A stretch of 64,000 bases of DNA from contig NZ_KB893244.1 in the NCBI RefSeq assembly GCF_000374025.1, positions 124,001 through 188,000 of the forward strand, given 5' to 3'. Made by a program: the position numbers and the translations under genes. The notes under the pieces were generated by a model, which worked only from the letters and a program-made list of their open reading frames with translations, made no database searches and had not been told where the DNA came from. The stretch's first letter is position 1, and every line of letters starts with the position of its first letter. Shown here one piece after another: positions 17,953 to 39,941 of this stretch. The stretch is from Spirosoma panaciterrae DSM 21099 (GTDB lineage: Bacteria > Bacteroidota > Bacteroidia > Cytophagales > Spirosomataceae).

Positions 17953-19233
17953 ATGAAGCCGATTATTCGCGTTGAAAACCTATCCAAACAGTATCGCCTG
18001 GGCGCTATTGGGACCAAAACGATCCGGGAGGATGTGCAACGATGGTGGCATCGTATTCAGGGTAAGGAAGACCCATATCTGAAAATTGGTGAAACGAACG
18101 ACCGGAGTAGTAAAGGGAATAGCGACTATGTGTGGGCGCTAAGAGACATTAATTTTGAGGTAATGCCCGGCGAGGTACTGGGTATTATTGGCAAAAATGG
18201 AGCAGGTAAATCAACACTACTAAAAATTCTTTCCAAAGTTACGGGGCCAACCACGGGACGCATTGACTTTAATGGCCGAATTGGAAGTTTACTGGAAGTT
18301 GGAACTGGCTTTCATCCTGACTTAACAGGGCGAGAGAATATATTTCTGAATGGTGCCATCCTGGGCATGACAAAACGTGAAATTCGGTCAAAACTAGATG
18401 AAATTATTGATTTCTCGGGTTGTGAACGGTATATAGATACCCCAGTTAAAAGGTATTCAAGTGGGATGACAGTGCGGTTAGGATTTGCAGTCGCAGCTCA
18501 CCTAGACCCAGAAATTCTAATAGTAGATGAAGTATTGGCCGTCGGGGATGATGAGTTCCAGAAAAAAGCTCTCGGCAAAATGCAAGAAATTAGTAAGAAC
18601 GAAGGGCGTACTGTTTTATTTGTTAGCCACAACATGATAAGTATTAAAAAACTATGTAATAGTGGCCTATTTTTAGAAAATGGTAATGTTTTAATGAGGG
18701 ATTCAATATCTAAAGTAGTAAATACTTATGAATATAAAAGTGCATCAATAGGTGAGATTGACCTAAGCTTAAGAAGTGATAGGAAAGGTTCTGGTAAAAT
18801 AAAAGTTATGAGTTGTAATTTATTGAATCGTTTTAATTATAAAACAACTAACATAGATTGCGGAGAAGTATTTTTGTTAGACTTGTCAGTAAAAAGTAAT
18901 TTAATGGAAACTAAATCGAAAAATATTGAAATAGCTGTTAATATTTGCCATATTGGAGGAGATAGGATAATACAATTAAGTAATCGCTTTTTAGGGCAAA
19001 ATATTTATTTAAATTCAGAGTTAACCAGAATACAATTTAGAATTGATAAATTTCCGTTGAACCCTGGTAAATATGCAATAAGAATATTTATTGCAAATAG
19101 TATAGAAATATTTGATTGGATAGATAATGTTTTAATTTTAAATGTTGAAGATGGAGATTTCTTTAAATCAGGATTTGTTGAGAATAGCTCAGTCTTTTTT
19201 GTTGATCATTCTATCAATATTATTAATAACTAA
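17953..19233 (+). CDS. wzt: ABC polysaccharide exporter ATPase with C-terminal recognition domain (Wzt)
   Basis: The 426-aa protein has an ATPase domain (residues 1 to about 250) with Walker A GKNGAGKST (about 80-88), signature YSSGMTVRLGFA (near 168) and Walker B ILIVDEVLAVGD. A C-terminal beta-sandwich-like Wzt_C segment (about 265-426) is the part known in O9a/O8-type exporters to bind the finished polymer end. The base composition changes abruptly near 18600. Sampled 60-base lines fall from about 55% GC at 18001 to about 30% at 18601, so the recognition domain matches the AT-rich genes downstream and not its own ATPase half. This suggests recombination within the gene. Confidence 0.94.
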   Translation: MKPIIRVENLSKQYRLGAIGTKTIREDVQRWWHRIQGKEDPYLKIGETNDRSSKGNSDYVWALRDINFEVMPGEVLGIIGKNGAGKSTLLKILSKVTGPTTGRIDFNGRIGSLLEVGTGFHPDLTGRENIFLNGAILGMTKREIRSKLDEIIDFSGCERYIDTPVKRYSSGMTVRLGFAVAAHLDPEILIVDEVLAVGDDEFQKKALGKMQEISKNEGRTVLFVSHNMISIKKLCNSGLFLENGNVLMRDSISKVVNTYEYKSASIGEIDLSLRSDRKGSGKIKVMSCNLLNRFNYKTTNIDCGEVFLLDLSVKSNLMETKSKNIEIAVNICHIGGDRIIQLSNRFLGQNIYLNSELTRIQFRIDKFPLNPGKYAIRIFIANSIEIFDWIDNVLILNVEDGDFFKSGFVENSSVFFVDHSINIINN

Positions 19234-19239
19234 TATAAA

Positions 19240-19887
19240 ATGAGAAGGAATAATGAAATAACAATTTTAGATTTTGACGCTGGTAACTTAAATGTATTAG
19301 TGAAAAAATTAGGAGATTTTGGCTTTAAAGCTCAGTATACAAATCAGATATCAAAACTTTCGGATGCAAATTTTTTATTAATTCCAGGTGTTGGTCATTT
19401 TAGAACAGCAATGAATAATTTAAAACGGAATAACATAATTGATATATTAAATAAAAAGGCTTTACTTGATAAAATCCCTATCATAGGTATATGTTTAGGA
19501 ATGCAATTATTTTCAAACTATAGTGAAGAAGGTAATTGTGAAGGGTTAGGATGGATTAGTGCAGAAACTAGGCTATTAAAATATAATGATAAAAGAATTA
19601 AAGTGCCACATATAGGTTGGAATAAAATTATTCCAACTCATAATAATAATTTTTATTCCTCCAATGAAATAAATCATGAATATTATTTTATACATTCATA
19701 CTATGTAAAGTGTAATCATGAAGAAAATGTATTAAGTTTTTCAAATTATGGAAATACTTTATTCTGTTCTTCTATTTTATATGATAATATTCTAGGCTTT
19801 CAATTCCATCCGGAAAAGAGCCAAAGAAAAGGTATGGAAATGCTTGTCAAAGCAATTAATTTTCAGATGGAAAAATATGCATTATAG
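19240..19887 (+). CDS. hisH: HisH-like glutamine amidotransferase for sugar acetamidino formation
   Basis: This 215-aa class I glutamine amidotransferase has nucleophile Cys85 in GICLGMQLF, and the His190/Glu192 pair in QFHPEKS. The LLIPGVGHFRTAM oxyanion segment is also present. It is HisH-like, but there are no other histidine genes here. It overlaps a HisF-like gene and is followed by a WbpG homologue, which is the hisH2-hisF2-wbpG arrangement of Pseudomonas O-antigen clusters. Its expected role is to release ammonia from glutamine and pass it through the HisF-like partner to the sugar amidotransferase. The gene is strongly AT-rich. Confidence 0.9.
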   Translation: MRRNNEITILDFDAGNLNVLVKKLGDFGFKAQYTNQISKLSDANFLLIPGVGHFRTAMNNLKRNNIIDILNKKALLDKIPIIGICLGMQLFSNYSEEGNCEGLGWISAETRLLKYNDKRIKVPHIGWNKIIPTHNNNFYSSNEINHEYYFIHSYYVKCNHEENVLSFSNYGNTLFCSSILYDNILGFQFHPEKSQRKGMEMLVKAINFQMEKYAL

Positions 19888-21822: not shown

Positions 21823-22962
21823 ATGAATAATAAATTAAAGATTTTTAAGGCTTTTCCGGCATATAAAAGCTATTTGTCTAGTTTTTACCAAAAAAGAGGC
21901 AAATTAGAAATAGAACCATTTAATATTCAGAAGAAAGAGTTAATTGATGATGCATTTCCATGGATATTCTCTTGGTCTACAAATAATTTAGATGAAGATA
22001 TAGAAATATTTGAAACTGTACATAATTCTGAAAGCCTTCAGAAAAGTTGGAATGTAAAAAAAAAATATAGTGAGAAGTGGCAGCAAGAAATATTAATAGA
22101 CCAAATAAAAGCCTTTCAGCCTAATATTTGTATTATTTATCCACCAGATTTATTTAACAGTGAATTACTATATGAAATTAGAAGAGCTGTAAAGCATGAA
22201 ATAATTATTGCTGGTTACGATGGGATGAACCGTGAGAATGAAAAATTATATAAAGGTTATGACTTAATAATAACATGTTCAGACTTTATTAGCCAATATT
22301 ATAATATAAAAGGATTTTTAACTTATTCATTGGATTTTAGTTTTGATGATTCGATATTAAGTAGACTTAAGAAAACTAATAAAAAATTTAATTTAAGTTT
22401 CACAGGTTCTATTTATAATAATATTCATGATGATAGATATAAATTGATAAAATATTTGCTTACACGGACAGATGTTAATATTAGATCAGAATTTAATTAT
22501 GGAATTAACAACAGTTTAATATCAAAAGGGCAGCTGAAAAGATTAATAAAGAATAGAGATTTTGCAAACTATTGGGCTTTATGGCGTATACAGGAAAAGA
22601 ACCTAGGCCCTGTTTACGGACTTGATATGTATCAATTCTTAAAAGAATCTAAAGTTTGTTTAAATATGCATGGTGATCTTATAAAATTTGCTGCTAATGT
22701 TAGATTATATGAAATAACTGGAATTGGTTCCTGTATGATAACTGATTGGAAAAGCAATATCTCTACGTTATTTGAGCCAGACAAAGAAGTTATGACGTAT
22801 AGCTCATTTGAAGAGGCATATGACAAATCGAAATTTTTAATAAAGAATAATCAATATAGAGAGAATATGGCATTAGCTGCTCAGAAAAGAACATTAGAGA
22901 ATTATACTTATAGAAAACGCATGCCTGTTCTTTTTGAATTTTTAAAAAAACTATATAAATAG
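21823..22962 (+). CDS. CgeB-like glycosyltransferase
   Basis: This 379-aa protein has no signal peptide. Its C-terminal part (about 260-370) matches the CgeB/glycosyltransferase group 1_2 pattern: GLDMYQFLKESKVCLNMHGD, NVRLYEITGIGSCMITDW, then a repeated-hit region ending in NYTYRKRM. This is a GT-B fold type of nucleotide-sugar transferase. Donor and acceptor are unknown. A run of ten A bases at 22056-22065 encodes a Lys repeat. It follows the wbpG-like gene after 51 nt and is similarly AT-rich. Confidence 0.75.
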   Translation: MNNKLKIFKAFPAYKSYLSSFYQKRGKLEIEPFNIQKKELIDDAFPWIFSWSTNNLDEDIEIFETVHNSESLQKSWNVKKKYSEKWQQEILIDQIKAFQPNICIIYPPDLFNSELLYEIRRAVKHEIIIAGYDGMNRENEKLYKGYDLIITCSDFISQYYNIKGFLTYSLDFSFDDSILSRLKKTNKKFNLSFTGSIYNNIHDDRYKLIKYLLTRTDVNIRSEFNYGINNSLISKGQLKRLIKNRDFANYWALWRIQEKNLGPVYGLDMYQFLKESKVCLNMHGDLIKFAANVRLYEITGIGSCMITDWKSNISTLFEPDKEVMTYSSFEEAYDKSKFLIKNNQYRENMALAAQKRTLENYTYRKRMPVLFEFLKKLYK

Positions 22963-22985
22963 CTTTATAAAAGAATAAATTTGTT

Positions 22986-23648
22986 ATGGCAAAAACGATA
23001 AGAGCTTGGTTTTACAGATTTATTAAATATATTATACCAGAAATTAATATTTTAAAAAAAAATATACATTGGAATGAATTTGTAGATTATAAAGGTTTTT
23101 GTACTATAGATGAAAACGTTAAAATAAATTCGCCATATAATTTACAAAGTGTTACTATAGGTTCTTACACATATATAGATAGGAATTCATATATTTCAAA
23201 TACAGAAATTGGAAAGTTTTGTTCAATTGGTCCTAATTTAGTGTGTGGTTGGGGGATACATCCGACTAATGGAATTAGCACATCCCCTATGTTTTATTCA
23301 ACTAAGAAACAAAACGGGCTGACACTTTCTCCACGAGATAAAATTATAGAGAGGAAAAAAATTGTAATTGAGAATGATGTTTTTATTGGAGCTAATGTAA
23401 CTATTCTTGATGGTGTTACAATTGGGAATGGAGCTATAATTGGTGCTGGAGCAGTTGTATCAAAAAATATTCCACCCTATGCTATAGCTATAGGGGTACC
23501 CATTAATATTATTAAATTTAGATTTAGTGAAGATCATATTAAAGCTTTGTTAGAAATTCAATGGTGGAATTTTTCAATTGAAAAACTTAAACAAATAGAG
23601 GAGTTTTTTTTTGATCTAGATCAGTTTATTGAAAAATTTGATCAATAG
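22986..23648 (+). CDS. CatB-like hexapeptide O-acetyltransferase
   Basis: The 220-aa protein has a short N-terminal helical part, then hexapeptide repeats (VTIGSYTYIDRNSYISNTEIGKFCSIGPN in two pieces). A loop with GIHPTNGISTSPMFY carries the likely active-site His. The helix closes with VFIGANVTILDGVTIGNG and GAGAVVSKNIPPYAI. This is the xenobiotic-acyltransferase (CatB) type, which often O-acetylates capsule or O-antigen sugars. The C-terminal tail KALLEIQWWNFSIEKL is typical. The following glycosyltransferase gene overlaps its 3' end by 20 nt. Confidence 0.85.
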   Translation: MAKTIRAWFYRFIKYIIPEINILKKNIHWNEFVDYKGFCTIDENVKINSPYNLQSVTIGSYTYIDRNSYISNTEIGKFCSIGPNLVCGWGIHPTNGISTSPMFYSTKKQNGLTLSPRDKIIERKKIVIENDVFIGANVTILDGVTIGNGAIIGAGAVVSKNIPPYAIAIGVPINIIKFRFSEDHIKALLEIQWWNFSIEKLKQIEEFFFDLDQFIEKFDQ

Positions 23649-24468
23649 TCTTTCTATAATTACTGTTAATCTAAATAATGCTGAAGGTCTGCGAAAGACT
23701 ATTGAAAGTGTTTTAGTACAAAGTTTTATAAATTTTGAATATATTATTATTGACGGTGGAAGTACAGATTCTAGTATCGACGTAATTCAATATTATAGCA
23801 ACTCTATCCATTATTGGGTAAGCGAAAAAGATAATGGTATATACCATGCTATGAATAAAGGCATTCTTAGTGCCAAGGGTGAGTATCTCCTTTTTCTAAA
23901 CTCTGGTGATTATCTTTACACTACCAATACTCTTTCAGATGTTTTTTCTATCTACCACACTGAGGATTTTTTATGTGGAAGTTCTGTGATAAGTAAAGAT
24001 GATAAAGTCATTCATGTTACGAATCCGCCCGAAGTGCACACATTTTTAGCGTATTATAGAGCTACTATTTCTCATCAGGCAACTTTTATTAAGAGGTATT
24101 TGTTTAATCTATATGGGCTTTATAGAGAAGATTTTCGTTATAATTCAGACTGGGAATTTTGGATACGTACTATAATTCTACAAAATTGCTCAACTAGAAA
24201 GCTTTCAGTTGTTATTTGTAACTATGACCTTAATGGTGTATCTTCTATAAATAGTGAGTCTGAAGAATATAAAAGAGAAGTACAAGAGGTTTTGAGTATA
24301 CCTTTACTTCAAAAATTTGTACCTGATTATGAATCTCAATGGCAAAAGAAGAGAGAAATGGCTCCCCTTTATTGGGTTAAATCTAAAAAAGTACTATTTA
24401 AGCTAATCTCGTTTTTATACAAACTAGCTGGATACTATAATAAAGTAAAAAATAAGATATATTATTGA
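23629..24468 (+). CDS. Family 2 glycosyltransferase
   Basis: A TTG start at 23629 (or 23638) inside the end of the acetyltransferase gene gives up to 279 aa. No ATG lies near the conserved start SLSIITVNLNNAEGL, so a non-ATG start is likely. GT-A features are the IDGGSTDSS donor motif, DNGIYHAMNKG and LNSGD (DxD equivalent). It is closely similar in layout to the gene at 29394 (WVSEKDNGIYHAMNKGI versus WVSEPDRGIYHAMNKGI), so the two are paralogues. It probably adds one sugar of the repeat unit. Confidence 0.88.
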   Translation: MKNLINSLSIITVNLNNAEGLRKTIESVLVQSFINFEYIIIDGGSTDSSIDVIQYYSNSIHYWVSEKDNGIYHAMNKGILSAKGEYLLFLNSGDYLYTTNTLSDVFSIYHTEDFLCGSSVISKDDKVIHVTNPPEVHTFLAYYRATISHQATFIKRYLFNLYGLYREDFRYNSDWEFWIRTIILQNCSTRKLSVVICNYDLNGVSSINSESEEYKREVQEVLSIPLLQKFVPDYESQWQKKREMAPLYWVKSKKVLFKLISFLYKLAGYYNKVKNKIYY

Positions 24469-24496
24469 GAATATCATTTTATATTAAATTAATATA

Positions 24497-25627
24497 ATGA
24501 AAATATTATTTATTACCCATTATTCTTCAATGTATGGTGCTAATAAATCTCTATGCAGTCTGCTACTAGATTTGCGTAGTACATATAAGCTTACTCCTCT
24601 AGTTTTATTACCTAGTCATGGCGCTATTTGCGAATTTCTTGAAAAGCATCAAATTGAATATATAGTTTCTCCTTTCTATTGGTGGGTTAATTCTGAACGT
24701 GGAGTTTATAAGTGTTTATTAAACATACGCAAACAAATTGTTAATTATTACCGAATTAACGCCATTTTAGCCATGTTAGAAGACTACAATATAGGTGCAG
24801 TCTACTCTAATTCAATTGTTATTAATCTAGGTTACTTTATTAGTTCTCGATTAAATTGTCCACATATATGGCATTTTCGAGAAAGTATGGATTCTTACAA
24901 TTTTAAATTTTCCCTTGGCAAGCGTTTTGCTGCCTTTTTTTTTATTTATTCCGCCCAAAAATATATACTTATCTCTGATTACCTCATGAGATATTATAGC
25001 CCTTTATTGCCACATGATAGAGTCATAAGAATTTACAATGGCTTGTCATTAAATTGCAGTGTTCCCTCTTTTACCAAAATGACGAATATGAACATAGCCG
25101 TAGTTGGTGTTATATCTTCTCAGAAGAATCAAATGGACATTTTACGCGCTAGTTTATTATTAAGACATAGGGGGTACGCAAATTTTACTCTTCACTTTAT
25201 TGGTACTGCACAAAGTAGTTATTTAACACAGATAAAAACCTTTTTAAAGGAAAATAATTTAGATAGCTTTTGTCAGTTTCATGGACATGTATCAAATGTC
25301 CATGCTTTATTAGACTCTATGCATTTAGGTATAGTTACCTCGCGAGATGAAGCTTTTGGACGGGTCAGTATAGAATATATGTTACACAGTATGCCTGTAA
25401 TTGCTAGTAATTCAGGCGCTAATCCGGAATTAATCAAGATGGGTGAGAACGGCTTCTTATATGAATTATTTAATTCTACTGAACTGGCAAATTATATTGA
25501 ATACTTTTTAAATAACAGCGAGTCTATGAGAAAAATGGGTATTCAAGCTCGGAAATTTGCTGAGGCCAATTTTTCTCAGGAGCAGAATTCTCGTAATGTT
25601 TACGAAGTAATTTGCAGTGTATTATAA
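24497..25627 (+). CDS. Family 4 glycosyltransferase
   Basis: This 376-aa GT-B protein has an N-terminal KILFITHYSSMYGANKSL segment, the glycine/asparagine-rich start of family 4 enzymes that act on cell-surface glycans. The C-terminal domain has AVVGVISSQKNQMDIL, a nucleotide-binding region, and the EX7E-type motif EAFGRVSIEYMLHSMPVIAS. The acceptor is unknown. It sits between a family 2 transferase and an AsnB homologue, all in the AT-rich block. Confidence 0.88.
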   Translation: MKILFITHYSSMYGANKSLCSLLLDLRSTYKLTPLVLLPSHGAICEFLEKHQIEYIVSPFYWWVNSERGVYKCLLNIRKQIVNYYRINAILAMLEDYNIGAVYSNSIVINLGYFISSRLNCPHIWHFRESMDSYNFKFSLGKRFAAFFFIYSAQKYILISDYLMRYYSPLLPHDRVIRIYNGLSLNCSVPSFTKMTNMNIAVVGVISSQKNQMDILRASLLLRHRGYANFTLHFIGTAQSSYLTQIKTFLKENNLDSFCQFHGHVSNVHALLDSMHLGIVTSRDEAFGRVSIEYMLHSMPVIASNSGANPELIKMGENGFLYELFNSTELANYIEYFLNNSESMRKMGIQARKFAEANFSQEQNSRNVYEVICSVL

Positions 25628-25651
25628 TCAATAGCTATAATTAATATAATA

Positions 25652-27448: not shown

Positions 27449-27452
27449 GACA

Positions 27453-28418: not shown

Positions 28419-28467
28419 TACTAATGTAGTGTTAACCCAGGAGTAAATTATTGTACGCCTTATTAGT

Positions 28468-29393: not shown

Positions 29394-30194
29394 ATGAAAC
29401 TCTCAATTATAACTATTAACTTTAATAATAAAGAGGGTTTAGCTAAAACTATTAAGAGTGTCATAACACAAACTACGTCTGAAATAGAATATTTGGTTAT
29501 TGATGGTGGTTCTTCTGATGGTAGCATAGAAATAATAGAGGAATATCAGGATCGAATAAATTACTGGGTTAGTGAGCCAGATCGAGGAATATACCACGCT
29601 ATGAACAAAGGAATTGCGAAAGCGCAGGGAGAGTACTGTCAGTTTCTGAATTCAGGAGACTCGCTTGTATCTCCTGATACAACCTCGCTTATGCTAAGCC
29701 AGCTAAATAGCAGCAGTATCGTTTACGGAAATCTGATCAAGCATTGGTCTAACGGCCGCACTTATCGTAATACCTCAATTGCGGTAGACTCACTTTTTAC
29801 CTTCTACAGCGGTACACTCAACCATGCTTGTACTTATCTTAAACGTTCTCTTTTTGATATCTATGGTCGCTATGATGAATCCCTCAAAATCGTGGCAGAT
29901 TGGAAATTTTATTTAATTGCCATTGGCATGAACGGAGAGACTGTGCAGTACATTGATGTTGATGTAGTCAACTTCGATATGGGTGGCATTAGCAATCAGC
30001 AAAAAAGTATAGAGAAGGCAGAGCGAAGCATGGTGTTGCAGGAAGTTCTGCCTGCCAATCTCCTACGAGATTTCGAACGTTATTACAAGCCTATCAGACA
30101 ATACCAGCGGATAGCCCGTTATAACTGGGCGCAGAAGATGTTATGGTTTTTGGACAGACTTCTGTTTCAATGGGAAAAATTTAGTAAGGACTAA
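29394..30194 (+). CDS. Family 2 glycosyltransferase, paralogue of the one at 23629
   Basis: This 266-aa GT-A enzyme starts MKLSIITINFNNKEGL and has VIDGGSSDGS, DRGIYHAMNKGIAKAQGEY and LNSGDSL. It matches the enzyme at 23629 through most of the catalytic domain. Composition changes inside this gene too: the first 200 bases are AT-rich like the preceding block, while a sampled line at 29701 has about 45% GC, like the next few genes. This may mark another exchange point within the locus. Confidence 0.9.
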   Translation: MKLSIITINFNNKEGLAKTIKSVITQTTSEIEYLVIDGGSSDGSIEIIEEYQDRINYWVSEPDRGIYHAMNKGIAKAQGEYCQFLNSGDSLVSPDTTSLMLSQLNSSSIVYGNLIKHWSNGRTYRNTSIAVDSLFTFYSGTLNHACTYLKRSLFDIYGRYDESLKIVADWKFYLIAIGMNGETVQYIDVDVVNFDMGGISNQQKSIEKAERSMVLQEVLPANLLRDFERYYKPIRQYQRIARYNWAQKMLWFLDRLLFQWEKFSKD

Positions 30195-30198
30195 TGGT

Positions 30199-31170: not shown

Positions 31171-32273
31171 AGATTGCTCACCTCATGGGATCGCTTAACC
31201 GGGGAGGTGCAGAAACCCTTGCCCTGGATATGTTTCGTAATTCGGCTCATGCGGGTTTGAATATGATACTTATTCACCGCAAAGGGGGGACTTTAGCTGC
31301 TGATTTTCGAAATTCGGGAGTGGAAACGATTGAGTTAGTACTCAAATCACCCGTTGATGTGAGTTATTTGTTTCGGCTACGAAAAAAGATAAAGGATAAA
31401 AAAATTACTATACTGCATGCTCATCAGGTTATTGATGCAGTGTATGCGATCTTAGCCACAGTGGGCATGCCCGCTAGAGTTATCCTTAGTCTCCATGGTC
31501 ATGGAGTGGCTGACGATAAACTGTCAGCCGCACTTCGCCGACTAGCTATTACGTATGCCGACCGGGTGATCTTTGTCAGCAAAAGCCAGCGTGAACACTA
31601 TCTTAGGCGTTTCGGAGATATACGAAAGAGCCTGGTCTGTTTCAATGGTCTGGACTTTAGCAAATTTAACGTCAAGCCAGACCAATCGTTGCGTAAGGAA
31701 CTAGGAATTCCAATGGATTATTTGTTGATGGGATCAGTAGGTAATTTCTCCTCTGGACGTGACCAACAGACAATTTGTCGATTTTTGACCTTGCTTAAAC
31801 GGGAAGCAATCCCGTTTCATTTTGTTTTTATTGGGGCCGCTTCCAAATCTGAACCTGAATTTTTCCAGCAGTGCGTTGACTACTGTCAAACGCATGGGTT
31901 GTCTCAGCAAGTAACTTTTATGGGGAGCCGGTCGGACGTTCCAGCCATATTGCCAGCGCTCGATGCATTTATTTATTCAACCGCGCATGATACATTTGGC
32001 ATTGCCGTAGTCGAAGCCATTGCGAGTGGAACCCCTGTGTTTGTTAATGATTGGGAAGTAATGAAAGAAGTAACGCAGGAGGGAAACTGGGCTACCTTGT
32101 ATACATCAAGAGATGAATCAGACCTCCTAAAAAAGTTTATTGACTTCTATCAAAACCAGATTAAGTACCGCGAACGCGCTCAGCAGAATAGTCTGGCTGT
32201 AAAAGAAAATTACTCGATCCAGAAATATCTACAACGTCTGAGTACGATCTATACATCTCTATTAAATACTTAG
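31167..32273 (+). CDS. Family 4 glycosyltransferase
   Basis: This 368-aa GT-B protein begins MKIAHLMGSLNRGGAETLAL, the classical family 4 acceptor-side glycine-rich start. The C-terminal half has GSVGNFSSGRDQQTI and the EX7E region ending EAIASGTPVFVND. The ATG overlaps the stop of the preceding glycosyltransferase, indicating translational coupling. The donor is likely a UDP- or GDP-sugar, and specificity cannot be read from sequence. Confidence 0.92.
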   Translation: MKIAHLMGSLNRGGAETLALDMFRNSAHAGLNMILIHRKGGTLAADFRNSGVETIELVLKSPVDVSYLFRLRKKIKDKKITILHAHQVIDAVYAILATVGMPARVILSLHGHGVADDKLSAALRRLAITYADRVIFVSKSQREHYLRRFGDIRKSLVCFNGLDFSKFNVKPDQSLRKELGIPMDYLLMGSVGNFSSGRDQQTICRFLTLLKREAIPFHFVFIGAASKSEPEFFQQCVDYCQTHGLSQQVTFMGSRSDVPAILPALDAFIYSTAHDTFGIAVVEAIASGTPVFVNDWEVMKEVTQEGNWATLYTSRDESDLLKKFIDFYQNQIKYRERAQQNSLAVKENYSIQKYLQRLSTIYTSLLNT

Positions 32274-32277
32274 AGTT

Positions 32278-33693
32278 ATGACGACATTTCTGCCTAAATA
32301 TTTTACAAGAAAAGCTATTATTTTATATGTACTACTACTAATAATCTGTTCAGGAGCACTTGTACAAAATATTCTTCCATTTCGTTGGGTAATGTTTGGC
32401 ATAGTGGAGGTATTTAGCTTCTTTTATTTTTCTAATCTGCTTACGAAAAGGTGGGGTGCATTTACACCAATACTTTTTAAGCGAAAGCTTTTCCGAACAG
32501 CGCTAACGATTCGCATGCTATATGCGGTATTCATATTTGTTTTTTATACAATAACGACTGGTAAACCTTTTGAGTTTGGAGCTGCTGATTCAGTAGGCTA
32601 CCATGAAGAAGCGATCTGGCTTATTGACTTGCTCCAAAATAATCAGTTGCCTATTTATCTGGAATACATTAAAGGGAATTATTCAGATTTAGGCTATGTG
32701 GTGTATTTGACGGCAGTCTACTCATTGGTAGGAGTCAATATTTTTTTAGTGCGTCTGATCAAAGCAGTTCTCGGTGCTCTAACCTGTGTATTAGTATACA
32801 AGTTGTGCGTTCGTAATTTCGGAGAAAATGCGGGAAGAATAGCGGGTATTCTGGCATTACTCTCGCCCAATCTGATTTATTATTGTGGCTTACATGTGAA
32901 AGAGACTGAAATGGTATTTCTTACCGTGTTTTTTCTAGAACGAGCTGACCTGCTTATCCGGCAACAGAAATTTAATACCATTATTCTCACCACGACGATT
33001 ATATTAGGATTGTCCCTGTTTTTCTTTCGCACAGTGCTGGGTGCAACAGCTATGACTTCACTAGTAATTGGCTTTTTATTATATTCCAGTCAGAGTGTTA
33101 GAATTACCTTACCAAGAAAAATAGCTTTTGGGGTCATTATGATAGGAATTGGTTTATTTTTACAGGGTAGCAGGATTGAAGCAGAAATAACTCGCTATTG
33201 GGGCGACCGAGACACTAATCAACGAGCCTCAATGATTGCCCGTTCTGAAAGCCCCATAGGCAATAGTTTAGCTAAATACGGTCAAACTGCCATATTTGCC
33301 CCCCTAATTTTAATAGCCCCCTTTCCTACACTTATAAATATTGAAACTCAGCAGAATCAAATGTTGCTTAATGGAGGATATTATACGCGAAATATTTATG
33401 TATTTTTCCTTATTATCGGATTACTGACACTTTGGAAACGTAGACAAAGTCGACAACATATGCTTCTCCTTTCCTTTTTGTTCAGCTACTTGACAGTATT
33501 GGCTTTAAGTAAGTTCGCTCTTGCTGAGCGTTTTCATATGCCGATTTTGCCAGTAATAATCATACTAGCCGCTTTTGGTGTTACACAACTTGATCGAAAA
33601 CACATCAAGTTTTATCAACCTTATCTTGCTCTGGTAGCACTTATTATTTTAGCCTGGAATATTTTCAAGATTGCCGGTCGAAGTGGTTTATAA
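32278..33693 (+). CDS. Polytopic membrane protein, GT-C glycosyltransferase or Wzy-like polymerase
   Basis: This 471-aa protein has about ten to twelve hydrophobic helices. An early extracytoplasmic loop contains FEFGAADSVGYHEEA, an acidic motif resembling the catalytic loop of GT-C/ArnT-like enzymes. Tyr/Asp-rich loops (YYCGLHVKETEMVF, RYWGDRDTNQRAS) follow. It sits among glycosyltransferases, 4 nt after one of them. A polymerase (Wzy) function is the alternative. Because export appears to be ABC-type, a lipid-linked-sugar-dependent transferase seems slightly more likely. I cannot decide between them. Confidence 0.65.
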   Translation: MTTFLPKYFTRKAIILYVLLLIICSGALVQNILPFRWVMFGIVEVFSFFYFSNLLTKRWGAFTPILFKRKLFRTALTIRMLYAVFIFVFYTITTGKPFEFGAADSVGYHEEAIWLIDLLQNNQLPIYLEYIKGNYSDLGYVVYLTAVYSLVGVNIFLVRLIKAVLGALTCVLVYKLCVRNFGENAGRIAGILALLSPNLIYYCGLHVKETEMVFLTVFFLERADLLIRQQKFNTIILTTTIILGLSLFFFRTVLGATAMTSLVIGFLLYSSQSVRITLPRKIAFGVIMIGIGLFLQGSRIEAEITRYWGDRDTNQRASMIARSESPIGNSLAKYGQTAIFAPLILIAPFPTLINIETQQNQMLLNGGYYTRNIYVFFLIIGLLTLWKRRQSRQHMLLLSFLFSYLTVLALSKFALAERFHMPILPVIIILAAFGVTQLDRKHIKFYQPYLALVALIILAWNIFKIAGRSGL

Positions 33694-33708
33694 TAAAGAA
33701 CACAATAG

Positions 33709-34641
33709 ATGAAAGTGCTTTTTGTCAGTAGTGGGAATAAAAAAGACGGCATTTCTCCTATTATTCTAAACCAGGGTGAAGCCATTCGGCGTGAGGGTGT
33801 AGATATTGACTATTTCACAGTGGCTGGCAAAGGGTGGTGGGGTTATATAAGCCATTGGTTGCCGCTAATAAATGTACTTCGGCACAATCAGTACGACTTA
33901 ATTCATGCTCATTATTCGCTCTGCGGATTCTTGGCCACATTAGCGGCACCCACTGGAATTCCTATAATCGTCTCGTTAATGGGCACATTTCGAAAAAATA
34001 CGGGTAAATACTACTTAGTCCGTTTTCTTGCAAAGTACCGTTGGCAGGAGGTCATTGTGAAATCAGAGCGCATGCGCGGACAGATTGGCCTGTTTACTGC
34101 TCATTTAATTCCCAATGGTGTTGAAATTGAAAAATTTAATCTACCTCTGTCCCGAGTTCAATTAAGGGAAGAACTAGGCTTGGCTAAAGATAGAAAAATA
34201 GTAATTTTTGTCTCAGATCCTGAACGGATTGAGAAGAATTTCCCACTCTGCCGAGCATCAATCGATGCCATAAATCGCAGTGATATAGACCTAATCCCAG
34301 TTTTTAATAAGCCGCACGAGGAAGTGGTAAAATATATGCTGGCCGCAAATGTACTGATGCTAACCTCCTTATCTGAAGGCTCGCCCAACGTCATCAAAGA
34401 AGCCATGGCTGCTAATTGCCCTATTGTATGTACTAATGTTGGCGATGTAGCTTATTTGCTCTCAGGGCTTAAAGGCGCTTTTATCTCTACTAAGTTTGAT
34501 GAAAATGAGCTTTCTACATTAGTAGAAAGAGCTTTATTAATAAATAATACAGAAGGTTTAAAGCGAATAAAATATTTACAGATAGATAGTATTAGTATAG
34601 CTAAAAAAATTGTTGGATTATATAAAAATAATATTCAATAA
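33709..34641 (+). CDS. Family 4 glycosyltransferase
   Basis: This 310-aa GT-B protein has KVLFVSSGNKKDGISPIILNQ at the start and LIHAHYSLCGFLA in the N-terminal domain. The donor-binding domain shows VIFVSDPERIEKNF and an EX7E-like region, SEGSPNVIKEAMAANCPIV. It is shorter than most family members but looks complete. It follows the membrane protein by 15 nt. The AT content rises again at its 3' end, where the second strongly AT-rich part of the locus begins. Confidence 0.88.
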   Translation: MKVLFVSSGNKKDGISPIILNQGEAIRREGVDIDYFTVAGKGWWGYISHWLPLINVLRHNQYDLIHAHYSLCGFLATLAAPTGIPIIVSLMGTFRKNTGKYYLVRFLAKYRWQEVIVKSERMRGQIGLFTAHLIPNGVEIEKFNLPLSRVQLREELGLAKDRKIVIFVSDPERIEKNFPLCRASIDAINRSDIDLIPVFNKPHEEVVKYMLAANVLMLTSLSEGSPNVIKEAMAANCPIVCTNVGDVAYLLSGLKGAFISTKFDENELSTLVERALLINNTEGLKRIKYLQIDSISIAKKIVGLYKNNIQ

Positions 34642-34728
34642 ATCTGATTGAAAATTTATTGAGTTCTTGAGTTATATGATAAAAACAAATAGTTAAAAAA
34701 TAATTAAGAATAGTTATTTCAATTAGTT

Positions 34729-35184
34729 ATGTTTAAAATAATACTAAGCCTTGGATATGCTGGAGATTTTAATGTTATACGAAGTAAAATGTCGAATAGA
34801 TTCATAAGGCGTCTACTTTACCCTATTTATAAAGTATTTCTGATCAATCATGGTAGTTATATCCCCTTAGGGTGTAAAATAGAAGGACCTATAAAATTCG
34901 TTCATCTACAGGGTATTTTTATATCAAGTAATTCTCAGATTGGGAAAAACTGTACAATATATCAACACGTTACAATTGGCTCAAATAGAGTAAATACTTC
35001 AAAAAAATTTGGGTCTCCTAGTATAGGTGATAATTGCATTATTGGAGCCGGGGCTAAGATAGTGGGAGGGATAGTAATTGGGAATAATGTTCGGATTGGC
35101 GCGGGATGCGTAGTAATAGAAGATATACCTGATAACTGCACAGTGGTATCACATAAGCCACGTATCATAAGAAGAGAAATTTAA
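34729..35184 (+). CDS. Serine-acetyltransferase-like hexapeptide acyltransferase
   Basis: This 151-aa protein has an N-terminal helical part (FIRRLLYPIYKVFLINH) and a short left-handed beta helix: IPLGCKIEGPIKFVHLQG, ISSNSQIGKNCTIYQHVTIG, PSIGDNCIIGAGAKIVGG and IGNNVRIGAGCVV. The His in YQHVTIG is the usual catalytic base of CysE-like enzymes. Short CysE-like proteins in polysaccharide loci acetylate sugars. It is separated from the previous gene by 87 AT-rich bases. Confidence 0.82.
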   Translation: MFKIILSLGYAGDFNVIRSKMSNRFIRRLLYPIYKVFLINHGSYIPLGCKIEGPIKFVHLQGIFISSNSQIGKNCTIYQHVTIGSNRVNTSKKFGSPSIGDNCIIGAGAKIVGGIVIGNNVRIGAGCVVIEDIPDNCTVVSHKPRIIRREI

Positions 35185-35196
35185 TCTTTACTTTCT

Positions 35197-36531
35197 GTGC
35201 TAAGAAACCATTTTATACAGGAGAATATCTTTTTACCTCTTAGTGATGTGGTAACGGGACAATCAGTAAGTAAACACCTAAAATTCCTGCAAAAAAGCAA
35301 GTATTGGAGTCGAGAACAATTAGATGTATTTCAGCATAATAGATTAAAATTATTAGTCAAGCATGCTTATGCACATGTGCCTTTTTATCGTGATCTTTTT
35401 GATGATTTGAGGTTGTTGCCGGAGGATATACAAACCAAATATGATTTACTTAAACTACCCGTCACTTCAAAATCAACTCTCAAAAAAGAGGGTATTGAGC
35501 GATTTACTTCGCAAGCTTACCCCAAAAAGTTAATTAAAAGCCGTGCTTCGAGTGGATCGACTGGAGAGCCTTTACATTATCTGTCGACAAAGGAAAGTTA
35601 TTCTGTAAATCTAGCTGCCATTTTACGTGGGTGGTTTGATATGGGTTTTCAACTTGGTGACAAATACGTTAAACTGAGTGGCAATCAGAGAAAATCAATT
35701 ATCAAAAAAATTCAGGATGCAGTAAGCAGTAACCGATACATTTCAGTGGATCCAATGAACGATGAAACTTTTCGATCTGTACTGGAAATCTTTGAAGACT
35801 ACCAACCAGCCTTTATTCGCTGCTATCCTGACCTACTACTCTTTTTAGCCAACTACAAGATGGCACATCCTGAATACATGTTTTCCCCAAAAGCAATCGC
35901 AACCACCGGAAATATGTTGTTTCCTGAGGTAAGAGCTAAAATTGAATCTGCATTTGGTTGTAAGATATTTGATTCATACAGCTGTGAGGGGAATTCTTGT
36001 GTATTTGAATGTCCTACTCACACTTGTTATCACTCTGCCGAAGAATATGGAATCACGGAGGTACTTGATTCCAATGGTACACTTATTAAGTCAGGAATAG
36101 GTCGATTGATAACTACAGATCTTTGGAATTTAGCCTACCCCTTTATCCGATACGACACTCAAGATTTAGTTGAAGTAGATGAAACACCTTGTGCTTGTGG
36201 GCGCAGCCATTTGCGAATTAATAAAATTATTGGACGTGAAAATGAAACATTGATAATGCCTAATGGAAAGAACTTTATTGTCCACCAGTTTACAATTTTT
36301 TTTAGCTCTAATGAAAACCTAAAAAGATCTATTGAGCAATTTCAAGTGATCAAAACTAAGACTAATGAGGTTTGTTTTAATCTAATTGTAAATGAGGCAT
36401 ACAATTTGGACATTCAAAATTATTTGATCAATTATTGGGCAAAAGAATTTGGTTCAAATGTTTTTGTCAACACTGTAGATGCCATTCCTTTGCTTTGTAA
36501 TAATAAGCGTCGATTTATTATAAACGAATAA
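35197..36531 (+). CDS. PaaK/CapK-like adenylate-forming enzyme
   Basis: A GTG start at 35197 gives 444 aa. No ATG lies near the conserved N-terminal helix. The protein has the phenylacetate-CoA-ligase-type segment VKHAYAHVPFYRDLF, the nucleotide P-loop RASSGSTGEPLHY, SYSCEGNS, and a Cys-rich zinc-like pair ending CACGRSHLRINKIIGRENE. CapK-type members occur in capsule loci across Bacteroidota. Their substrates are mostly unknown, and activation of an acyl group or amino acid for sugar decoration is plausible. It is followed by a FemAB-like acyltransferase, which could use such an activated group. Confidence 0.85.
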   Translation: MLRNHFIQENIFLPLSDVVTGQSVSKHLKFLQKSKYWSREQLDVFQHNRLKLLVKHAYAHVPFYRDLFDDLRLLPEDIQTKYDLLKLPVTSKSTLKKEGIERFTSQAYPKKLIKSRASSGSTGEPLHYLSTKESYSVNLAAILRGWFDMGFQLGDKYVKLSGNQRKSIIKKIQDAVSSNRYISVDPMNDETFRSVLEIFEDYQPAFIRCYPDLLLFLANYKMAHPEYMFSPKAIATTGNMLFPEVRAKIESAFGCKIFDSYSCEGNSCVFECPTHTCYHSAEEYGITEVLDSNGTLIKSGIGRLITTDLWNLAYPFIRYDTQDLVEVDETPCACGRSHLRINKIIGRENETLIMPNGKNFIVHQFTIFFSSNENLKRSIEQFQVIKTKTNEVCFNLIVNEAYNLDIQNYLINYWAKEFGSNVFVNTVDAIPLLCNNKRRFIINE

Positions 36532-36554
36532 ATTTCATTCCTCTACAAAAAAAT

Positions 36555-37589
36555 ATGAAGATTGATATTATAAATTCTAACTTAACTAAAAACTGCCAAA
36601 TTCAAATAAATGATTTCTTATTAAAATATGGCTCCGCAACTACATTCTTTCAGTCGCCTTCCTATTTTATGGCCTGCTTACAAACTACCAATAAGAAGCC
36701 TACGTATATTTTGTTGTATTCTGATGATGATAAGTTGATAGGAGTACTCTTATATGTACGACAGAACTTTATTCGGTTGCCGCTTGCTAAATTTATGTCT
36801 AGTCGAGATATTATAATTGGAGGTCCAGTCGTTAAAGAGGATAATTCTTTAGCACTTATAAGAATATTAGACGTTTATATTAAACAGAGGTTTTTACCTA
36901 TTTACTCTGAGTTTAGAAATCTGTTTGACCAATCAAAAAATAAAGAAATATTTGCTAAAAAGAACATAGTATTTGAAGAACATTTAAATATTCTTGTTGA
37001 TATTTCTAAGGATGAAGAAAGTTTGAGAAAATCTTTGAAGACAAATGCTAAGAGGAATATTCAAAAATCAATTAAAGAAGGATGTGAGTTTAGTGAAGAT
37101 ACTACTATATCCTCATTAAAAGATAGCTACAAAATACTAAAAGAAGTATATGAGAGAGCGAAGTTGCCACTACCAAGTTTAGTCTATTTTGAAAATATGT
37201 TAAATTGTTCAACAAGAGGAAATGAACTAAAGAACTTTAAAGTAAAATATAATAATGAAACAATTGCATGCATGTTATGTGTGGTTTCAAATAATATGAT
37301 CTATGAGTACTATACAGGGGCATTTCAAAATTACTTTGATAAGTACCCCAATTACTTACTAACATGGGAGATATTTATGTGGGGTAAGAAACATAATATT
37401 AATACTTTTGACTTTGGTGGAGCTGGTAAGCCTAATATCCCATATGGAGTTAGAGAGTATAAACTTAAATTTGGAGGTGAGTTAATTAATTATGGAAGAT
37501 TTACGCGGATCAACTACCCATTAGCTTATAAAATATCCGTACGTTCATTTAATCTTTTAAGACGTATAATAAATAAAATATATAAATAA
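36555..37589 (+). CDS. FemAB/GNAT-like acyltransferase
   Basis: This 344-aa protein has the two-lobed FemAB-like layout. SLKTNAKRNIQKSIKEGCEF lies in the middle, and FDFGGAGKPNIPYGV with YKLKFGGE lies near the end, the typical FemAB signature. Such proteins transfer aminoacyl or acyl groups to sugars or peptides. Placement directly after a PaaK/CapK-like activating enzyme suggests a two-enzyme decoration step, which is an inference. The gene is strongly AT-rich. Confidence 0.8.
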   Translation: MKIDIINSNLTKNCQIQINDFLLKYGSATTFFQSPSYFMACLQTTNKKPTYILLYSDDDKLIGVLLYVRQNFIRLPLAKFMSSRDIIIGGPVVKEDNSLALIRILDVYIKQRFLPIYSEFRNLFDQSKNKEIFAKKNIVFEEHLNILVDISKDEESLRKSLKTNAKRNIQKSIKEGCEFSEDTTISSLKDSYKILKEVYERAKLPLPSLVYFENMLNCSTRGNELKNFKVKYNNETIACMLCVVSNNMIYEYYTGAFQNYFDKYPNYLLTWEIFMWGKKHNINTFDFGGAGKPNIPYGVREYKLKFGGELINYGRFTRINYPLAYKISVRSFNLLRRIINKIYK

Positions 37590-37612
37590 GACTAAAGAAT
37601 ATCTTCCATAAT

Positions 37613-38104
37613 ATGTCCTACGGTAATCTAAATAATTACAATACGAATTTTCTTGATAAAGTTTTGATTAAAATTTATCGTTGGATTGCTTCGTCTTTTC
37701 CCCTAAATAAAGTTAGAATTTGGGCACTTAGAGGCTGTGGGTTCTCGATAGGAAAGGATGTTTACCTTGGTCCTGATTTTTTAATTTCAATGATGAATTC
37801 AAATAGTTCATGTAGTCTGGTAATCAATGATAGAGTTGCAATTGGGCCTCGAGTTACTATAGTGTTGGCCTCAGACGCAAATTGGTCTCATTTAACTACT
37901 TACTATTCGCCAATTAAAGGTAAAGTGATTTTAGGTGCCGACTGCTGGCTCGGAACTGGTTGTATTATCCTTCCAAATGTCTCTATTGGATCATGCTCGG
38001 TAGTTGCTGCTGGGGCTGTGGTGACAAAAGATGTGCCAGATTATCACGTAGTTGCAGGGGTACCTGCTAAAACTATCAAAATAATAGATAAATTAGCTTT
38101 ATGA
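37613..38104 (+). CDS. WcaF-like hexapeptide acetyltransferase
   Basis: This 163-aa protein has RIWALRGCGFSIGKDVYLGPDFLI-type repeats (GCGFSIGKDVYLGPDF), then INDRVAIGPRVTIVLASDAN and LGADCWLGTGCIILPNVSIG. It ends with GAVVTKDVPDYHVVAGVPAK, the standard end of maltose/galactoside-O-acetyltransferase-like enzymes. It is probably an O-acetyltransferase acting on a repeat-unit sugar. Its stop overlaps the next start as ATGA. Confidence 0.85.
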   Translation: MSYGNLNNYNTNFLDKVLIKIYRWIASSFPLNKVRIWALRGCGFSIGKDVYLGPDFLISMMNSNSSCSLVINDRVAIGPRVTIVLASDANWSHLTTYYSPIKGKVILGADCWLGTGCIILPNVSIGSCSVVAAGAVVTKDVPDYHVVAGVPAKTIKIIDKLAL

Positions 38105-39186
38105 GATTTCTATTCGCGTTAGGTCATCCAGCTCATTTTCATCTTTATAAATATACCATTTCAGAACTATTAAATGAAGGCCATTCTGTTAAAATTGTTA
38201 TTAGTGATAAAGATATTTTACGAAAATTACTCTTAGACGAGAAATATGAATTTGAAGTTGTAGCAGCCTTAGATATAAAGAATGGTTTATTTTTTAAAGG
38301 TAAAAAGTTGTTCAAATCAACGGCTAAGTTATTCTCTATTTGCCGGCTGTATAAACCAGATATATTAATTGGATGCCTTACTCAAATAAGCTGGGTAGGC
38401 TTTTTATTAAGAATTCCCAGTATATTTAATGCTGAGGATGATATGACATACACCTTTTTACAAGGTATTATTACATACCCTTTTATTTCAACTATTCTTG
38501 CACCTATCCCTACAAAAGTTGGTATTTTTTCCTTTAAAAAAATTGGATATGCCGGTTATCATAAATTAGCCTATTTACATCCAAATAGGTTTCAAAGTAA
38601 TTCAGAATTAGTGACAAATACTGTAGGCCATAAGCCTTATATACTTTTTCGTTTGGTGAGCTTAAATGCATATCATGACGTTAATGCTAAAGGTATTTCT
38701 GAAGAAACTTTGAAGAAACTTATAATTCTTTTCAAAAAATATAATATATTTATTTCTTCTGAAAAACCTTTAAAATCTGATTTTCAAAAATTTAAATTAA
38801 AAATAAATGAGAAGAATATACATCACTTTTTAGACAATGCTTCGTTTTTTATTGGAGATAGCCAGAGTATGACTGTTGAAGCAGCTCTCTTAGGAACTCC
38901 TAATATTAAGTATAATAGTTTCTTTGGCAGGATTAGTGTTTTAGAAGAGCTTGAAAATGTTCATGGCCTTACAAAAGGTCTACCACCTGATGAGGATCTA
39001 TTGTTCAAGACCATAAATGAATATATTGATGACTCTCAAATTCATAGTAGATATGAAGAACAAAGACAAATAATGTTATCTAGTAAAATTGATGTGACAG
39101 CTTTTTTTCTCTGGTTCTACAAAAACTACCCCATCAGTAAAAAAATAATGAAGGATAATCCTGATTATCAATATAATTTCCGTTAA
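38101..39186 (+). CDS. DUF354 protein (GT-B-like)
   Basis: This 361-aa protein begins MRFLFALGHPAHFHLYKYTI, the DUF354 start, with a conserved His-rich N-terminal motif. DSQSMTVEAALLGTPNIKYN in the C-terminal half resembles the donor site of GT-B enzymes and 2-epimerases. The family is frequent in archaeal and bacterial surface-glycan loci without an assigned reaction. It overlaps its neighbours at both ends (ATGA before, TAATG after), which argues for co-expression with the acetyltransferase and deacetylase-like genes. Confidence 0.82.
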   Translation: MRFLFALGHPAHFHLYKYTISELLNEGHSVKIVISDKDILRKLLLDEKYEFEVVAALDIKNGLFFKGKKLFKSTAKLFSICRLYKPDILIGCLTQISWVGFLLRIPSIFNAEDDMTYTFLQGIITYPFISTILAPIPTKVGIFSFKKIGYAGYHKLAYLHPNRFQSNSELVTNTVGHKPYILFRLVSLNAYHDVNAKGISEETLKKLIILFKKYNIFISSEKPLKSDFQKFKLKINEKNIHHFLDNASFFIGDSQSMTVEAALLGTPNIKYNSFFGRISVLEELENVHGLTKGLPPDEDLLFKTINEYIDDSQIHSRYEEQRQIMLSSKIDVTAFFLWFYKNYPISKKIMKDNPDYQYNFR

Positions 39187-39941
39187 TGGACTTTACTGTA
39201 ACTAAATATACCGAATTTTTGGATTCGATACGTTCTGGTAGTTATTCGTTTCAATCGTTTAGTGAGTCTTTAGCACATATATCAAACAAGTCCATCATTC
39301 TCAGACATGATGTAGACCTGCTTCCAAGTAATTCGCTGGTGTTTGCTAAAATTCAGCGTGACCGAGGAATTAAAGGCGTATATTATTTTCGGGCTGTTCC
39401 TGAAAGTTGGAATGAGTATATAATTAAGGGAATTTCAGAATTAGGCCATGAAATTGGTTACCATTATGAATGCCTGACGACTTGCAATGGAAATTTGAGC
39501 CTTGCTATAAAAGATTTTGAGAAAAATTTAACGGCTCTTCGAAAATTAGCTCCAGTATCGACCATTTGTATGCATGGAAGCCCGATGTCAAAATATGACT
39601 CGAAGGACTTATGGAAAACGTATTCCTACCGCGATTTTGGCATACTGGGCGAGCCCTATTTTGACATTGACTTTGGCAAAGTAGCGTATTTCACCGATAC
39701 GGGACGACGGTGGGATGGTGAAAAAGTGAGTGTTCGAGATAAAGTTGATTCAACGTTTGGACATAGGTTTCGCACAACCGATGAGATTATTGCCGCCCTT
39801 CGCAGTAACGAATTGCCAGATCAAATGATGTTTACGTTCCATCCGCAGCGTTGGAATGATGATCCATGGCAATGGACTAAAGAATTGATCAGCCAGAATG
39901 TGAAAAATCTGGTAAAACAATACTTCTTCATTAAAGAATGA
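39186..39941 (+). CDS. Polysaccharide-deacetylase-like protein
   Basis: This 251-aa protein shows ILRHDVDLLPSNSL (the HDVD metal and catalytic motif of NodB-like deacetylases), LGHEIGYHYEC (the second His motif), ICMHGSPMSKYD and a late TFHPQRW. It is probably a cytoplasmic or peripheral enzyme, as no signal peptide is visible. Composition changes inside the gene: sampled lines are 33-43% GC up to about 39600 and 48-52% after it. The right edge of the AT-rich block therefore falls in this coding sequence. Confidence 0.85.
   Translation: MDFTVTKYTEFLDSIRSGSYSFQSFSESLAHISNKSIILRHDVDLLPSNSLVFAKIQRDRGIKGVYYFRAVPESWNEYIIKGISELGHEIGYHYECLTTCNGNLSLAIKDFEKNLTALRKLAPVSTICMHGSPMSKYDSKDLWKTYSYRDFGILGEPYFDIDFGKVAYFTDTGRRWDGEKVSVRDKVDSTFGHRFRTTDEIIAALRSNELPDQMMFTFHPQRWNDDPWQWTKELISQNVKNLVKQYFFIKE

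Follow-up and report, generated by a model that had tools for sequence, protein, structure and literature searches.

Wzt as a probable hinge between a conserved export backbone and a replaceable sugar cassette in Spirosoma

This study concerns a surface-polysaccharide export locus of Spirosoma panaciterrae DSM 21099, and in particular wzt, the gene that encodes the Wzt subunit of its ABC transporter. The locus lies within a stretch of 64 kb out of an 8.13-Mb genome (contig NZ_KB893244.1, positions 124,001 to 188,000), which we call the window; positions are counted from its first letter. Our results suggest that wzt is probably a hinge that joins a conserved backbone, made up of wzm and the ATPase part of wzt, to a replaceable cassette, and that homologous recombination swaps a module that would hold both a chain cap and its reader. 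A preliminary description of this DNA had proposed that the polymer-recognition domain and the repeat-unit genes are exchanged together by recombination in shared flanks. The paired junctions in flank genes and a reversal of protein identity between flank and inner genes support that proposal. We refine it: the left crossover falls in the ATPase, relatives have in part the same inner genes at low identity, and exchange is also seen on a smaller scale.

The junction inside wzt

Wzt has 426 residues (17953-19233), with a Pfam ATPase domain at residues 63-194 (PF00005) and a Wzt_C domain at residues 275-409 (PF14524, E 2.5e-14, cut-off passed). An adjacent pair of wzm (PF01061) and wzt (PF00005) is present, as in ABC-transporter-dependent export, and judging by these domains the locus is an ABC-transporter-dependent surface-polysaccharide locus whose Wzt carries a carbohydrate-binding module. 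The predicted Wzt model (mean predicted local distance difference test score, pLDDT, 83.7) has a linker helix at residues 252-264 and an all-beta domain at 283-399. Its best match in both sequence and fold is Aquifex aeolicus WzmWzt (PDB 8dku, 7k2t, 6amx), at 32% identity and, for 8dku and 7k2t, across both Wzt domains. The whole-chain template modelling score (TM-score) is about 0.5, so the two domains may be arranged differently in the model and in A. aeolicus. Taken alone, the C-terminal domain matches the A. aeolicus crystal structure 6o14 weakly (E 0.096). The solved ATPase-only construct of A. aeolicus Wzt aligns as far as residue 259 of the Wzt studied here.

The content of guanine and cytosine (GC) changes abruptly within this gene. 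The maximum-likelihood change point is at 18614 (interval 18575-18644 at 2 log-likelihood units; likelihood gain 25.6), with 44.5% GC before it and 25.5% after. Third-position GC (GC3), taken per 20 codons, is 0.20-0.55 up to codon 220 and 0.05-0.29 from there on, so the fall does not come from amino-acid content alone. The preliminary description was thus right that GC falls inside wzt; its value for the ATPase side was not, since that part has 42-48% GC in 200-bp windows rather than 55%. It was also right that the ATPase half matches the backbone in composition (wzm has 43.8% GC) and that the 3' part is AT-rich (25% GC).

DNA identity tells the same part of the gene apart. Per ten codons of wzt, the window is 0.67-0.90 identical to three relatives (G001, G004 and G014) up to codon 210 and 0.57-0.63 identical at codons 211-220, with a general fall at codon 231. 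The window junction is therefore at about codon 211-221, ahead of the motif VLFVSHN (221-227). Here and below, H-loop and Walker B are the names that we take to apply to motifs of the Wzt ATPase. In seven of eight pairs of loci compared, the blastn match ends at wzt nucleotides 681-731; in the eighth (G014-G019) it covers the whole of wzt plus the next two genes. Mean column identity of Wzt over the 83 loci surveyed below is 0.80 at residues 221-230, 0.42 at 231-240 and 0.07-0.25 per block from 261 on.

The reach of the ATPase-only construct to residue 259 and the linker helix at 252-264 put the left crossover, as placed by alignment, inside the ATPase and 30-50 residues short of the domain border. 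On the same alignments, the crossover of the window precedes the H-loop and that of G004 and G005 closely follows it. A breakpoint exactly at the domain border, as first described, is ruled out by the codon-wise identity together with these two structural marks.

A divergent block between conserved flanks

We searched 36 genomes of the genus Spirosoma, the window's own included, for wzt and compared the ten best-scoring loci as 40-kb stretches (one is shorter, at a contig end, and the gene-order comparison covers the G007 locus only in part). Among the genomes compared, G001 is the closest relative in the flanks. Window and G001 proteins are 95, 89, 98 and 88% identical for four left-flank genes and 77, 89, 85 and 96% identical for four right-flank genes, a range of 77-98% against 65-87% for flank proteins of G001 and G004. 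For nine inner genes with reciprocal best hits the order is reversed: window and G001 are 32-51% identical, G001 and G004 54-80%. Left out of this comparison were the gene at 22986-23648, whose partner in the relatives is a hexapeptide transferase of the left flank, and the genes starting at 23629, 25652, 27453, 28468 and 31167, which have no consistent orthologue set (window to G001 36-49% where given).

The right junction is sharper by identity than by composition. The expected rise in GC near 39600, in a deacetylase-like gene, was recovered as a change point at 39532 (39287-39597; 30.7% to 46.4%, gain 43.4) when computed over 38101-41536. It is blunter than the left one: computed over 39186-41536 instead, it moves to 40115 (39528-40199, gain 8.7), and within the open reading frame 39186-39941 alone the gain is only 2.3. 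As far as 39425 this frame has a nucleotide identity of 0.47-0.67 to G001, and beyond that point of 0.77-0.92, a step that the comparison of G001 with G004 does not have (0.55-0.82 throughout). DNA identity to G001 places the right junction within this frame, at about 39426-39545. The name "deacetylase-like" is that of the preliminary description; the gene has no match in Pfam or NCBIfam. Between the two junctions composition is uneven, with genes of 26-35% GC as far as 29373 and 29-44% afterwards.

High identity in the flanks, low identity inside and abrupt junctions are what a cassette exchange should leave behind, and all three are seen. The identity reversal argues that the window block is foreign, and the position of both ends within conserved flank genes fits homologous recombination in shared flanks. 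By these comparisons about 21 kb of the window is foreign, and each end of this block falls within a flank gene. Relatives are similar up to the left junction, different between the junctions and similar again past the right one, as had been anticipated. The expectation of unrelated content in between holds for the low identity and fails in part for gene content: seven inner genes (starting at 29394, 30199, 31167, 32278, 33709, 36555 and 38101) stand in the same order in G001 at 32-51% identity. With several distant orthologues in conserved order inside the block, strictly unrelated inner content is ruled out. The opposite case, a similar full-length wzt with the same inner genes, occurs in other loci (G116, G124, G099 and G132; G014 and G019) and not for the window.

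A donor search in 390 genomes of the order gave no close source. The window C-terminal domain has relatives at 24-32% identity in 16 other genomes, all of other families, and the protein at 35197-36531 has relatives at 24-32% in 22 other genomes, none from the same family. A megablast of 15032-19233 against plasmids gave no match.

A smaller exchange between two relatives

G004 and G005, both single-contig genomes, are 93.4% identical in DNA from 5 kb upstream to wzt nucleotide 692. Past this point there is no blastn match of at least 100 nucleotides for 2.6 kb in one genome and 3.1 kb in the other; 93.0% identity resumes at about codon 6 of a gene for a 310-residue protein and extends over 21.7 kb. 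The replaced stretch holds the Wzt C-terminal domain, an FkbM methyltransferase (just above cut-off) and a GT2 glycosyltransferase in G004, and the Wzt C-terminal domain, a TylF methyltransferase, a Methyltransf_23 protein and a GT2 in G005. As the alignment reads, the two genomes differ by a swap of the Wzt C-terminal domain plus two or three genes.

The 310-residue gene recurs in ten loci, G004 among them, with identities of at least 57% and at positions from +2 to +10 (counted in genes downstream of wzt). From its placement it can act as the right-hand anchor for a variable module that spans one to nine genes. Ahead of it we find a gene of the FkbM cluster and a GT2 in G202, both plus one more in G014, and FkbM alone in G035a and G199.

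Further along, the usual right flank of G005 (FemAB to antiterminator) is gone past the WbuX gene, at about 30470 of the joined locus, and opposite-strand genes follow. The HisF-like gene of G004 (L043:8108-8794, joined locus 28108-28794) has a shortened frame of 115 residues that matches the C-terminal 105 residues; the frame in G005 has 255.

Co-variation of the C-terminal domain with its neighbours

For a wider survey, wzm matches were found in 35 of 222 family genomes, and those above 41% identity were used, other than the contig-end fragments in G206 and G160; the best 80 of 374 relatives in a named genome collection were added. Of 111 loci assembled, 18 had no intact wzm-wzt pair; the remaining 93 were reduced to 83 by removing 10 duplicates.

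Across these loci the Wzt C-terminal domain varies together with the two genes that follow wzt. Given ATPase identity, the partial correlation between C-domain similarity and similarity of the +1/+2 genes is 0.498 (permutation p 0.001), compared with 0.284 for the +4-6 genes and 0.269 for the +7-9 genes (both p 0.001). It is 0.435 (p 0.002) once ATPase, +4-6 and +7-9 genes are all controlled; like controls leave 0.10 for the +4-6 genes and 0.04 for the +7-9 genes. A +1/+2 gene is shared in 24 of the 35 pairs (nine clusters) whose C-domain similarity is at least 0.3. Among the 3141 pairs below 0.1, a +1/+2 gene is common to 7, a +4-6 gene to 66 and a +7-9 gene to 79. Any gene within the first six is shared by 32/35 similar and 125/3141 dissimilar pairs.

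Composition follows a like division. GC3 of the C-domain is correlated with that of the +1-3 genes given the ATPase (partial r 0.755), GC3 of the ATPase with that of wzm given the C-domain (0.806), and GC3 of the C-domain is not correlated with that of wzm given the ATPase (-0.16, p 0.19); these values come from the 72 of 83 loci with complete data, and the p-values ignore relatedness. From ATPase to C-domain GC3 falls in 74/83 loci. The drop in the window ranks 11 of 83 and is thus strong but not unique.

Methyltransferases are more frequent beside wzt than at the further position tested, +6. At +1 (81 proteins) Pfam finds FkbM 16 times, Methyltransf_11 and relatives 11 times each, TylF 6, hexapeptide transferases 8 and GT2 6; at +2 (78 proteins) GT2 25, Methyltransf_23 9 and FkbM 4; at +6 (71 proteins) GT2 25, FkbM 2 and Methyltransf_24 2. 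These tallies cover the 25 commonest families, and one protein may match several. They serve as the independent count of methyltransferases, because profiles seeded from +1 genes bias the count by position.

In four loci (L083, L081, L084 and L086, from G124, G116, G099 and G132) a protein of 426-430 residues stands at +1, in L084 inside a frame of 738 residues. The L083 copy, the one scanned, has no Pfam match. G126, with a similar C-domain, has a 52-53% identical copy at +4.

Some loci come from metagenome bins, whose taxon labels may be wrong, and cross-phylum pairs were not counted as proof. Two bins labelled Desulfobacteraceae/Desulfobacterales have a wzm of 72% identity, and a bin labelled Bifidobacterium breve has one of 55% (L095, L098 and L150), which reflects either transfer or mis-binning.

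The locus and its other genes

Features of the locus are collected in Table 1. Directly after wzt the window carries genes for all three HisH/HisF2/WbuX subunits, a predicted acetamidino-sugar module: WbuX scores 284.1 bits (TIGR03573, cut-off 203.2), HisH 198 (TIGR01855, cut-off 105.4) and HisF2 307.5, just below its cut-off (NF038364, 310). This trio has 26-33% GC. That of Spirosoma relatives is 32-47% identical to it, has about 45-53% GC and lies near the right end, at +16 to +28 (+8 and +9 in L113), where the window has no copy of HisH, HisF2 or WbuX. An acetamidino sugar may be the chain-end tag of the window; alternatively, the FkbM gene at 28468, which is within the cassette and does not adjoin wzt, may serve.

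Table 1. Features of the polysaccharide export locus; positions within the window
Feature	Position	Strand	Basis or remark
Outer-membrane polysaccharide export protein (Poly_export/SLBB, Wza-like), upstream	6839..7705	+	Pfam
Wzz/GNVR/AAA_31 protein, chain-length and tyrosine-kinase type, upstream	7774..10173	+	Pfam
Initiating sugar-phosphate transferase (Bac_transf), left flank	11586..12686	+	Pfam; 95% to G001
DegT aminotransferase, left flank	12908..14065	+	Pfam; 89% to G001
GFO/IDH/MocA oxidoreductase, left flank	15032..16000	+	98% to G001
wzm, ABC-2 membrane subunit	17080..17931	+	PF01061; 88% to G001
wzt codons 1-210, backbone-type ATPase domain	17953..18582	+	GC 44%; identity to relatives
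Left junction	18575..18644		Interval of the GC change point; relatives less identical from codon 211 on
wzt 3' part: H-loop, linker helix, Wzt_C carbohydrate-binding domain (Pfam residues 275-409)	18614..19233	+	25% GC
HisH-, HisF2- and WbuX-like genes, predicted acetamidino-sugar module	19240-19887, 19844-20617, 20608-21771	+	Pfam, NCBIfam
AT-rich sugar genes: Glyco_trans_1_2 protein, hexapeptide transferase, GT2, Glycos_transf_1, asparagine-synthase-like, 321-residue protein without Pfam match, FkbM methyltransferase (28468-29373)	21823..29373	+	
Inner genes	29394..39186	+	Seven in the order of G001: two GT2, two Glycos_transf_1-type, PMT_2-like (below cut-off), FemAB, DUF354; further, a pair of hexapeptide transferases and one acyl-CoA-ligase-like protein (35197-36531)
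Deacetylase-like gene, mosaic: first third foreign, remainder backbone	39186..39941	+	Nucleotide identity to G001
Right junction	39287..39597		GC change-point interval over 38101-41536; nucleotide identity to G001 at least 0.77 from 39426
VanZ-like protein, right flank	39958..40371	+	89% to G001
UDP-GlcNAc (UDP-N-acetylglucosamine) 2-epimerase family, right flank	40385..41536	+	85% to G001
UpxY-family antiterminator (NusG-like), right flank	41655..42191	+	96% to G001
Wzi-like capsule assembly protein, right flank	42228..43706	+	73% to G004

Between the oxidoreductase and wzm lies an epimerase gene (16050-17060) whose best NCBIfam model is TviC, far below cut-off, and which has no reciprocal best hit among the four relatives compared. 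The acyl-CoA-ligase-like protein inside the sugar cassette is below all model cut-offs. In a second class of locus (G035b, G021) the UpxY/NusG-like antiterminator immediately precedes wzm and does not follow the cassette. In G001, an 85% match to the protein at 60200-62464 lies downstream of wzt, about 53 kb away. Among the 30 proteins of 15032-44367, of which four lack any Pfam match, none matches a Pfam family of a Wzx flippase or Wzy polymerase, and no kinase family is among the Pfam matches of these 30 proteins.

Mechanism and alternatives

From the observed junctions, replacements and co-variation the following mechanism can be drawn up. The left crossover would occur by homologous recombination near the H-loop, where the conserved part of the ATPase ends, and the right crossover in another conserved gene. 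In the window that gene is the deacetylase-like one, and by the comparison with relatives about 21 kb was replaced; in G004 and G005 it is the inner 310-residue gene, and the Wzt C-terminal domain plus two to three genes was replaced. The motor would tolerate either swap, with the ATPase motifs up to Walker B staying with the recipient and the H-loop segment nearly identical in every donor. The C-terminal domain probably recognizes the chain at its non-reducing end, which the genes next to wzt, often a methyltransferase, probably make or decorate, so that one crossover would swap reader and signal together and keep export working. We infer such a cap-and-reader module, in which the neighbouring genes would write the end tag and the Wzt domain would read it, from the known terminal-moiety rule (see below), the enrichment of methyltransferases and the co-exchange.

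A more general form of this idea is that the Wzt C-terminal domain and one to three adjoining genes are a portable end-tag and reader module, widespread in Bacteroidota, and that a single exchange at the H-loop edge swaps tag chemistry and export gate while repeat unit and motor are unchanged. This we put forward tentatively, as a proposal somewhat more likely to fail than to hold.

Several observations weigh against a cap-and-reader exchange. A clean swap on the small scale is known from one genome pair, and beyond the 21.7 kb G005 is without the usual right flank, so these loci differ there too. In the window block, the gene at 30199-31170 hardly shows the reversal of identity, with 54% between G001 and G004 and 51% between window and G001. 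Three of the nine inner genes, the HisH/HisF2/WbuX trio, are at another position in G001. That trio, not a methyltransferase as in many relatives, adjoins wzt in the window. The window C-domain also has no close relative with which the pairing could be tested (24-32%, in 16 other genomes of 390), and none of the window genes +1 to +5 is found in the 3.4-3.5-kb loci of its C-domain relatives. In the survey, the 35 pairs with similar C-domains share a +4-6 gene in 18/35 and a +7-9 gene in 15/35 cases, and ATPase GC3 keeps a link with the +1-3 genes given the C-domain (r 0.37, p 0.001). At ATPase identity of at least 0.85, 4/19 pairs with similar C-domains are without similar +1/+2 genes, and such genes occur in 6/264 dissimilar and 0/10 intermediate pairs. 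Some of these exceptions vanish when genes further downstream are counted, but later genes are then shared too. Agreement between methyltransferase class and C-domain is weak (p 0.005 overall, 0.055 for distant pairs).

Adjacent genes move together mechanically, and the main rival explanation is that C-domain and neighbours travel between the same anchors without any functional pairing of cap and reader. Such linkage explains at least part of the co-variation: the junctions do sit in conserved sequence, namely the H-loop segment of the ATPase (7/8 pairs) and the 310-residue anchor gene, and the +4-6 genes co-vary with the C-domain before controls (partial r 0.28). In G126, three other genes have come to lie between wzt and the 430-residue gene that its relatives have at +1; the 430-residue gene is kept, and the next two are also. 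As the sole explanation we nevertheless consider linkage rather unlikely. Loci with unrelated C-domains match far less often at +1/+2 (7 of the 3141 pairs) than further downstream. Some pairs, for example G016 and Flavobacterium sedimenticola (L123), agree in C-domain and +1 gene and have nothing at +4 to +9 that reaches a similarity of 0.1. Methyltransferases, moreover, are frequent at +1 and not at +6.

One could also argue that the window block is an old divergent allele, kept within the species group as a balanced polymorphism rather than imported from another family. Seven inner genes keep the order of G001, which marks the block as an allele of this type of locus. Its AT-rich composition, however, differs from that of the backbone, and the search of 390 genomes of the order gave its type of C-domain in no further member of the family; on balance we regard an old allele as unlikely. 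It is very improbable that no exchange took place at all, that is, that the C-domain diverges fast in place under diversifying selection and that the fall in GC is an AT-drift of surface-sugar genes. Surface-sugar genes are often AT-rich, and GC3 falls towards the C-domain in most loci. But the stretches replaced in G004 and G005 differ in gene number and gene families and are bordered by 93% identical DNA. The window has a sharp left change point, and C-domain GC3 tracks the neighbours, not wzm. A gradual drift is ruled out by the change point in wzt and by the replacement in G004 and G005.

If recombination does swap cap and reader as one piece, then a chain cap and the domain that reads it can change without an unfit intermediate, both lying within one exchangeable piece that has its left edge in the transporter gene itself. 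Cap chemistry would be predictable from the gene beside wzt. G004 and G005 would be a natural swap pair for testing Wzt specificity, and typing by full-length wzt can mix two histories.

Comparison with known systems

That the C-terminal domain of Wzt confers specificity, and that cassettes are exchanged through their flanks, is already known. Bench work on O8 and O9a by Cuthbertson in 2005 reportedly put specificity in the C-terminal domain, and a census by Mann, Kimber and Whitfield in 2019 is said, going by its title, to relate terminator chemistry to modules on ABC transporters.

A natural exchange of Wzt domains with a junction in the ATPase half, together with a sub-cassette of reader and enzymes, was not found in the titles and opening abstract lines of the open-licence literature, so its absence from print is not shown. 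Transfer of a whole lipopolysaccharide cluster, wzm and wzt included, has been reported (PMC4872527). For the Klebsiella prototypes it is reported that the Wzt module recognizes the terminal moiety of the chain and that only terminated chains are exported (PMC11231755).

The Wzm-Wzt systems of E. coli O9a and Klebsiella O3/O5/O12, in which a carbohydrate-binding module reads a terminal cap, resemble the window in having a Wzm-Wzt pair with a beta-rich C-terminal module on Wzt. They differ in that no terminator of the WbdD or Kdo (3-deoxy-D-manno-oct-2-ulosonic acid) type was identified in the window locus, and in that the reader and its neighbouring genes have been replaced together in nature in Spirosoma loci. 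The cassettes behind serotype switching of O-antigens and capsules share with the window the conserved flanks, the divergent middle and the junctions in flank genes. Unlike in those cassettes, one of the Spirosoma junctions lies inside the ATPase gene of the transporter, and a smaller sub-cassette is exchanged as well.

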